DNA of 64,000 bases from Pseudonocardia sp. Lineage in GTDB: Bacteria > Actinomycetota > Actinomycetes > Mycobacteriales > Pseudonocardiaceae. Position 1 is the stretch's first letter, and each line of letters begins with the position of its first letter. Below are positions 5,807-7,855 of this stretch, piece by piece. The translations under genes were made by a program, and so were the position numbers. Under the pieces are notes generated by a model. It saw nothing but the letters and a program-made list of their open reading frames with translations, was not told the DNA's origin and made no database searches. The stretch is taken from NCBI RefSeq assembly GCF_029263155.1, contig NZ_JAJCYB010000131.1:62001-126000 (forward strand). Reading direction: 5' to 3'.

Positions 5807-7855
5807 ATGCGATGGAGCCGCCAGCAGGTCCAGGACGACGGGGTCGGCACGGAGCAGGCGCTGCCGGGGCTGCGGGGGCTGCTGCGCTCGGTGCGCACGC
5901 CCGAGTTCGCCGGTGCGGTGTTCCACGAGGTGGAGGCGCGCTCGGTGCTCAACCGCGTGCCGGGCGGCTCACCCGTGCCGTTCCGCTGGACGGTCAACCC
6001 GTACCGCGGCTGCTCCCACGCCTGCGTCTACTGCCTCGCGGGCCCGACGCGCGTGCTGATGGCCGACGGCAGCACCCGCCCGATCGCGCAGCTGCGGGTG
6101 GGCGACGCGGTGATGGGCACCGAGCGGGTCGACGGGCTGCGCCGCTACGTCGCCACCGAGGTGGTGGCGCACTGGTCCACGCGCAGGCCGGCGGTGCGGC
6201 TGCGGCTGTCCGGCGGCACCGAGATCGTCGCGAGCGGCGAGCACCGGTTCCTCACCGAGCGGGGCTGGCGCCACGTCACCGGGGGGTGGTGCCGTTCCGG
6301 GCGCCGGCCGCGGCTGCGCGAGGGCGACATGCTGCTCGGCCCGGGCGCGTTCGGGGAGCGGCCCGCCGCCCGGCACACGGCCGGGTACCGCCGGGGCTAC
6401 CTGTGCGGGCTGGTCCGGGGCGACGGGCCGAGCCCGGCGCAGCCGGACCGCTGCTTCCCCTCCGATCGGCTGGCGCTCGAGGTGCTCGGCCGCGCCCACC
6501 ACTTCATGTCCCTGGAGCAGCGCCGGTCGCGCGCTCCTGCGGGACCCACGATGGCAGCGGCCGGGCGGGTGGTCGACGGCCGCATCGCCCCGCCCGCGGA
6601 CCACGCCCTGCCGCGCGAACCGGACCGGGTCGACACCGCGATCGGCTGGCCGCGGCACGCGGGGGAGGACTGGTGCGCGGGCTTCCTGGCCGGCCTGCTC
6701 GACGCCCGGGGCAGCGTGGCGCGCGGTGAGCTGCGGATCGGGCACACCGACGAGGAGGTCGTCGGGCGGGTGGCCGGGGCGCTGCACCGGCTCGGCTTCC
6801 GGTTCGCGGTGGAGCCGGGGGAGCACGGTGAGCGGGTCGTGCGCCTTGCCGGGGGCCCGGGCGAGCTGGTCCGGCTGGTGGCGCTCGCCGGCCCGGCGGT
6901 GCGGCGCGACGTCGGCGGGGCGCCGGTCGGGGGCGCGGCCCGGGTGGTCGCCGTCGAGCCGCTGGGCCGCACCGAGGCCATGTACGACATCACCACCGAC
7001 ACCGGTGACTTCGTGGCCGAGGGCGTGGTCAGCCACAACTGCTTCGCCCGGGGCACCCACACCTACCTCGACCTCGACGCGGGGGCCGACTTCGACAGCC
7101 AGATCGTGGTCAAGGTCAACGTGGCACGCGTGCTGGAGCGGGAGCTGAGCGCGCCGCGATGGGCGGGCGAGCCCGTCGCCATGGGTACCAACACCGATCC
7201 CTACCAGCGGGCCGAGGGTCGGTACCGGCTGATGCCCGGGGTCATCGGGGCGCTCGCCCGGTCCGGCACGCCGTTCTCGCTGCTCACCAAGGGCACCGTG
7301 CTCACCCGCGACCTGCCGCTGCTCACCGCGGCGGCCGCGGACGTCCCGGTCGGGCTGGGGGTGTCGATCGCGCTGCTCGACCGCGGGCTTCAGGCAGGTC
7401 TCGAGCCGGGCACGCCGTCCCCGGAGGCCCGGCTCGACCTCGTCCGCCGCATCGCCGACGCCGGGCTGCCGTGCGGGGTGATGGTGGCACCGGTCCTGCC
7501 GCTGCTCACCGACTCCACCGAAGCCCTCGACGCCCTGCTGGGTCGGATCGCCGCGGCCGGGGCCACCGGTGCGAGCGTGCTTGCGCTGCACCTGCGCCCC
7601 GGCACCCGCGAGTGGTTCCTGGCCTGGCTCGCGCGCGAGCACCCGCGGCTCGTGGAGCCCTACGGGCGGCTCTACCGGCGCGGCCCCTACGTCGACGCGG
7701 AGTACCGGCGCGCGCTCGGCGCCCGGGTGGCGCCGCTGCTGCGCCGCCACGGCCTGGCGTCCTCGGACGGTGTGCTGCGGGGCCCGCCCGGTGCGTCCGA
7801 GCTCGCCCGCGCGGCGGTGCACTCCCCGCAACCCGAGCAGCTCACGCTGCTCTAG
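5807..7855 (+). CDS. Intein-containing Rv2578c/SplB-family radical SAM protein
   Basis: 682-residue precursor. Residues 1-75 and 412-682 are exteins; 76-411 are an in-frame intein, so the spliced product would be 346 residues, close to Rv2578c. The N-extein ends in NPYRGCSHACVY, with C69 and C73 of the CX3CX2C iron-sulfur motif. The third cysteine comes from the C-extein residue C412 (CFARGTHTYLDLD), so no [4Fe-4S] cluster can form until splicing restores CSHACVYC. The C-extein has the TIM-barrel blocks VAMGTNTDPYQ and SLLTKGTVLTRD of SplB-like COG1533 proteins. The exact reaction is unknown; DNA repair is suggested by the family and by the SOS box at 5783-5798. No Shine-Dalgarno is visible before the ATG, which may be leaderless. 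Confidence 0.93.
   Translation: MRWSRQQVQDDGVGTEQALPGLRGLLRSVRTPEFAGAVFHEVEARSVLNRVPGGSPVPFRWTVNPYRGCSHACVYCLAGPTRVLMADGSTRPIAQLRVGDAVMGTERVDGLRRYVATEVVAHWSTRRPAVRLRLSGGTEIVASGEHRFLTERGWRHVTGGWCRSGRRPRLREGDMLLGPGAFGERPAARHTAGYRRGYLCGLVRGDGPSPAQPDRCFPSDRLALEVLGRAHHFMSLEQRRSRAPAGPTMAAAGRVVDGRIAPPADHALPREPDRVDTAIGWPRHAGEDWCAGFLAGLLDARGSVARGELRIGHTDEEVVGRVAGALHRLGFRFAVEPGEHGERVVRLAGGPGELVRLVALAGPAVRRDVGGAPVGGAARVVAVEPLGRTEAMYDITTDTGDFVAEGVVSHNCFARGTHTYLDLDAGADFDSQIVVKVNVARVLERELSAPRWAGEPVAMGTNTDPYQRAEGRYRLMPGVIGALARSGTPFSLLTKGTVLTRDLPLLTAAAADVPVGLGVSIALLDRGLQAGLEPGTPSPEARLDLVRRIADAGLPCGVMVAPVLPLLTDSTEALDALLGRIAAAGATGASVLALHLRPGTREWFLAWLAREHPRLVEPYGRLYRRGPYVDAEYRRALGARVAPLLRRHGLASSDGVLRGPPGASELARAAVHSPQPEQLTLL
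6032..7039 (+). other. Intein with LAGLIDADG-type endonuclease domain
   Basis: 336 codons inserted at the third cysteine codon of the radical SAM motif. Splicing features: Cys1 (CLAGPTRVLMADG), a block B-like stretch IVASGEHRFLT containing the conserved His but Ser in place of the usual Thr, a block F-like stretch YDITTDTGDFVAEG, and the C-terminal VVSHN followed by Cys+1. Two dodecapeptide-like motifs are present: GYLCGLVRGDG (residues 197-207, with the catalytic-position Asp) and GFLAGLLDARGS (292-303, where that Asp is Arg301). Splicing residues look intact while the homing endonuclease looks inactivated. GC content and codon use resemble the host gene, suggesting long residence. Confidence 0.92.

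Follow-up and report, generated by a model that had tools for sequence, protein, structure and literature searches.

Gene organization and family assignment

An intein-containing gene for a radical S-adenosylmethionine (SAM) enzyme was found in a 64,000-nucleotide stretch of DNA from Pseudonocardia sp. (contig NZ_JAJCYB010000131.1, positions 62,001 to 126,000; the whole stretch is hereafter the window, and its own numbering is used throughout). The gene occupies positions 5807..7855 of the forward strand, on which all features described below lie, and its 682-amino-acid product was assigned to the Rv2578c family from its sequence and two profile matches. NCBIfam model NF038136 (intein-containing Rv2578c family radical SAM protein) scored 789.4 bits over residues 1-650, above its cut-off of 700; NF038135, which models the family without the intein, gave the same product 511.5 bits (cut-off 430). 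The nearest named proteins, sharing 77-80% identity, were Pseudonocardia proteins bearing the name of the former model. The product carries CX3CX2C on a partial TIM barrel, as is characteristic of radical SAM enzymes resembling spore photoproduct lyase (SPL); a PDB sequence search with an intein-free homologue gave zero matches. The original prediction, made from the DNA letters alone, had allowed that this insertion class might already be described, and the existence of NF038136 bears this out: the class is known, the window copy is one more member, and one further member as such adds little.

Boundaries and conserved residues of the intein

The reading frame was uninterrupted across the insert, a class-1 intein of 336 amino acids (336 codons, 6032..7039) lying between CSHACVY and CFARGTH, exactly where the original prediction had placed it. 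It separates an N-extein of 75 amino acids (5807..6031), ending NPYRGCSHACVY, from a C-extein of 271 amino acids (7040..7855), both delimited by alignment to empty alleles. The same alignment identified the first C-extein residue, C412, as the third cluster ligand in addition to its role as the +1 nucleophile, as had been proposed. Within CSHACVYC (6011..6034), C69 and C73 belong to the N-extein and C76 is Cys1 of the intein, and the three form a complete CX3CX2C before splicing.

The identity of the insert was established by profiles, fold, splice residues and alleles alike. When it was analyzed alone, two of the four intein-related profiles (intein_Nterm and LAGLIDADG_3) scored above their cut-offs and two (Intein_splicing and Hom_end_hint) below. 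The class-1 set, namely Cys1, the block B His, the block F Asp, the terminal His-Asn, and Cys, Ser or Thr at +1, was present in the window and in all 93 distinct occupied alleles described below; in the window, block B reads SGEH (SxxH, 6233..6244) and the terminal His-Asn lies at 7034..7039. The predicted structure of the insert has the HINT fold, and C73 aligns with the extein -3 position in 3nzm. A PDB sequence search with the intein returned only weak matches, to RecA and other inteins. Furthermore, empty alleles were seamless across the insertion site. The presence of an intein at the third Fe-S Cys of a radical SAM enzyme was thereby confirmed.

Distribution of occupied and empty alleles

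Motifs for the two gene halves were applied to 140 records; 127 had both halves in one open frame and, after identical sequences were collapsed, represented 114 distinct alleles, 93 occupied and 21 empty, every one of which has CxxxCxY followed by Cys at the boundary. The other 13 records comprised an empty allele missed by the motif (L110), four copies frame-shifted within the intein (L117, L122, L131 and L138), four records of split genes (L070, L095, L101 and L114), and four in which the frame reaches the contig end (L084, L111, L118 and L119). The frame shifts, which occur in four Pseudonocardia genomes (G321, G301, G295 and G297, respectively), may be real losses or assembly errors. Mini-inteins of 143-166 amino acids accounted for 18 of the 93 distinct occupied alleles. 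Many Actinomycetota carry an intein at this site, and the very same position can also be empty or filled by a mini-intein.

The ratio of 93 to 21 gives no estimate of prevalence, because intein-bearing or C-extein queries had been used to collect the records. A fairer count for the genus was obtained with a C-extein-only query in 62 Pseudonocardia genomes including the window's own: 35 had intact full inteins, 1 a mini-intein, 4 frame-shifted copies, 1 a split gene, 12 empty alleles and 4 copies with intein sequence cut by the contig end (G306, G307, G315 and G316), and 5 were without a convincing gene. The intein was hence missing in 12 of the 57 gene-bearing genomes, two of which (G280 and G281) have empty alleles identical in sequence. 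In a class-wide sample of 60 genomes, in which matches were accepted at E below 1e-50, 25 genomes besides the window's gave a match (5 occupied, 18 empty and 2 of undecided state).

State of the endonuclease and history of the intein

An active endonuclease of this type has one acid ending each of two LAGLIDADG helices. The window intein retains the first, in YLCGLVRGDG (6398..6427), and has Arg, encoded at 6707-6709, at the catalytic acid position of the second motif, FLAGLLDARG (6683..6712). Both acids were kept in just 17 of the 75 full-length inteins. In the intein tree, the window intein fell within a Pseudonocardia-only branch of 32 members (Shimodaira–Hasegawa-like approximate likelihood ratio support 97), all of which have lost the second acid, its position being taken by Arg in 15, Cys in 10, Ala in 5, Leu in 1 and Ser in 1. 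These inteins have not shrunk; they span 319-519 amino acids with a median of 335.5, against a median of 293 in the other 43 full inteins. Mean identity within this clade was 0.69 for the splicing domain and 0.86 for the extein, the opposite of Actinokineospora (intein 0.87, extein 0.82). From these comparisons, the intein of the window's clade looks vertically inherited, and the clade fits a late stage of the homing cycle.

The extein and intein trees were built on 140 and 144 columns, respectively, and many forks were weak in both. Three alleles fell into one clade: L025, a full intein that keeps both acids; L067, a mini-intein identical to L025 at 108 of 149 residues; and L080, which is empty. 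Their exteins are identical at 130-131 of the 140 compared residues. As L025 and L067 cluster with intein lineages other than that of the window, more than one gain of the intein within the genus is probable. With full-length, mini and empty forms of a site at a cofactor-binding Cys inside a single genus, this close Pseudonocardia trio provides natural variants with which the influence of an intein, including that on the cluster loading of a radical SAM enzyme, can be tested.

In the extein tree, Haloechinothrix was placed with Streptomonospora (L057 and L086) and Amycolatopsis antarctica with Nakamurella (L105 and L109), and a record titled Melainabacteria (L099) bears an actinobacterial-type copy; these may reflect gene transfer, a weak tree or misbinning. 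A phage source of the window intein was also considered and rejected, in that a search of viral_contigs gave no relative, and the 20 matching records of annotated phages, including 18 Gordonia phages with the match in terminase, showed only N-terminal intein similarity, at 30-35% and covering 29-35% of the query.

Predicted splicing, persistence and possible dispensability

These observations are very probably best explained by a canonical class-1 intein in an SPL-like radical SAM enzyme, deriving from an ancient homing insertion, equipped with a probably inactive endonuclease and persisting mainly by vertical descent. The intein would have homed long ago into the stretch of the gene whose codons are best conserved. 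Its excision would proceed through a Cys1 thioester, transfer to Cys+1 and cyclization of the terminal Asn, whereby C73-V-Y would be linked to C412 and the ligand loop of the radical SAM barrel rebuilt. The LAGLIDADG endonuclease, lacking one of its two catalytic acids, is probably inactive, and in the window's clade the intein would persist mainly through vertical descent because any imprecise deletion destroys the enzyme.

Several features weigh against this explanation. Where Thr is usual in block B, 81 of the 93 occupied alleles have Ser and the other 12 have Gly. The first acid was kept in all 32 members of the window's clade (31 Asp and 1 Glu), although a fully decayed endonuclease would not need it; the reason may be structural or a partial activity. 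Moreover, among 13 close pairs picked by hand out of the pairs listed, each row being used once and 10 pairs lying within the 32-member clade, the median ratio of nonsynonymous to synonymous substitution rates (dN/dS) was 0.32 for the endonuclease region, 0.18 for the splicing domain and 0.10 for the extein, so that some purifying selection still acts on the endonuclease region. Wider comparisons gave medians, in the same order, of 0.87, 0.54 and 0.29 for 1,622 accepted pairs of acid-deficient inteins and of 0.62, 0.34 and 0.42 for 99 pairs keeping both acids, values that were not relied on since dS is unreliable in distant pairs.

A stronger form of the preferred explanation, in which the intein is a neutral parasite remnant that always splices fast and completely and has no effect on the host, is probable as well. 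It is favored by the loss of the endonuclease acid throughout the sampled clade, by the empty alleles within the same genus and by the mini-inteins elsewhere. In contrast, the endonuclease region has conserved core positions as well as the moderate dN/dS of the close pairs, and thus some structural constraint remains. Regarding the host, the empty alleles in the genus, the five genomes without a convincing gene and the disrupted copies together speak against an essential role for either the intein or the enzyme. Likewise, the target gene of Streptomyces phage Samy was placed in the Rv2578c family, and its inactivation in S. ambofaciens was argued to have no notable fitness effect (PMC12924846).

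The original prediction further held that the enzyme cannot bind its cluster until C69, C73 and C412 are joined. As worded, this is unsupported: the intein Cys1 stands exactly where the +1 Cys would be, and because of this the unspliced precursor retains an intact C69-x3-C73-x2-C76, so that the absence of a third ligand from the precursor is unproven. The deficit of the precursor is instead the proper link of the third ligand to the barrel, and splicing is very likely the step that rebuilds the active enzyme. The view of Cys1 as a third ligand predicts a behavior of the precursor that the simple view of no cluster before splicing does not.

Possible redox or metal control

MoaA belongs to the radical SAM enzymes and has the CX3CX2C motif. 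According to reviews, the Pyrococcus abyssi MoaA intein has a Cys at -3 beside Cys1, for which a disulfide trap was reported (PMC10663303, PMC3922620). The window has the same Cys-3/Cys1 arrangement in C73-V-Y-C76, and by this analogy sensitivity to redox state, raised in the original prediction, is plausible. An activation gated by redox state, in which a C73-Cys1 disulfide would block splicing under oxidizing conditions and the O2-sensitive enzyme would be released only when the cell is reducing, seems nonetheless unlikely, even though it is compatible with the ancient homing insertion and not an exclusive alternative to it. All 21 distinct empty alleles have Cys-3 as well, and thus cluster binding alone explains its conservation. 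The intein-free alleles of the genus and its genomes without a convincing gene count against it too, and the broken gene copies weigh against a dedicated control role. Open-licence PubMed Central (PMC) literature, judged partly by the titles of the matches listed and offering no proof of absence in print, yielded no experiment or other report on an intein in an Rv2578c-family protein. The present data do not demonstrate a selected redox switch; redox inhibition via Cys-3/Cys1 may occur as a chemical by-product of the site. Separately, the intein has an extra Cys in GWCRSGRR, Cys87 (6290-6292), found in 32 of 32 members of the Pseudonocardia clade and in 46 of 93 occupied alleles overall; it is a possible disulfide partner for Cys1.

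Still less credible is the notion that C69, C73, Cys1 (C76) and Cys+1 (C412) together bind a [4Fe-4S] cluster or Zn and hold the intein unspliced, such that splicing would sense Fe-S, metal or redox state; if true, loading of the cluster would draw on the very thiols needed for splicing, at the cofactor site of the enzyme. Finally, the idea that the insert belongs to the normal fold of the enzyme, or is some unrelated domain, can be dismissed, given the intein profiles and fold, the conserved splice residues and the seamless empty alleles, which by themselves refute it.

The intein/C-extein junction and other insertions

In three genomes, the gene was split exactly at the intein/C-extein junction: a Pseudonocardia metagenome-assembled genome (MAG; G318, loci L070/L142 with L114), Amycolatopsis anabasis (G390, L147/L151 with L095) and an Actinophytocola MAG (G391, L145/L152 with L101). 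In each, the N-part with a full intein extends to the SHN|C boundary and is followed by foreign DNA, and the C-extein begins at CFAR on a separate contig with foreign DNA before it. In G318, a 461-amino-acid serine integrase, which scores 102 bits for Resolvase and 57.5 bits for Recombinase, begins 24 bases beyond the junction-derived AACTG. In G391, a broken serine integrase adjoins the junction in pieces spread over three frames, one above the cut-offs for Recombinase and its zinc ribbon, one just below that for Resolvase (21.7 against 23.3), and one matchless. No integrase was seen on the short contig remnant of G390, where no search was aimed at integrases. The junction thus seems to act as an attachment site, with intein sequence in its left half and extein sequence in its right. 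As the gene halves lie on separate contigs, the element was not seen whole, and from just three cases a requirement for the intein half cannot be claimed. Open-licence PMC literature on inteins and attB (bacterial attachment sites) contained, by the titles among the matches listed, nothing on attachment at an intein junction.

The phage Samy att repeat also fits, with one mismatch, the FDTPEF codons in the N-part of this gene in three probable Streptomyces genomes (L168, L170 and L171), which marks another insertion hotspot besides the junction. Besides, the window's own genome contains a second intein (G000:C33, L141) in the vitamin B12-dependent ribonucleotide reductase NrdJ (NF005122 1178 bits, intein_Nterm 32.6 bits). 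It lies between QQVSA and CFILAV, likewise at a Cys, here an active-site one.

Comparison with known systems

NF038136 shares with the window protein both the host protein and the intein class, with a score above the curated cut-off and no family-defining difference, the window copy having a degraded second LAGLIDADG motif. SPL (PDB 4fhf and others) shows only 13-15% identity to the window enzyme. Among other radical SAM families, NF045703 (tetraether lipid synthase Tes, intein-containing) also has a curated intein model, although it is a different enzyme and is known here by family name only. The P. abyssi MoaA intein, known here through reviews, shares the Cys-3 beside Cys1 and differs in being archaeal and in another enzyme. 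Insertion at the third Cys of CX3CX2C is observed in the window; for MoaA it would follow from the -3 position in those reviews together with its CX3CX2C motif. The Mycobacterium smegmatis DnaB inteins, described as redox and Zn sensitive (PMC6195587, PMC7360933), are conditionally splicing inteins that resemble the window intein in being actinobacterial; however, DnaBi1 is of class 3, with a disulfide within the intein and a helicase host, unlike the window intein. With respect to the junction cases, the attB of phiJoe is located close to the end of another radical SAM gene, according to the phiJoe paper. Phage Samy is a serine-integrase element with its attB in an Rv2578c-family gene (PMC12924846), its 12-base repeat fitting, with one mismatch, the FDTPEF codons in the N-part and not the intein junction.
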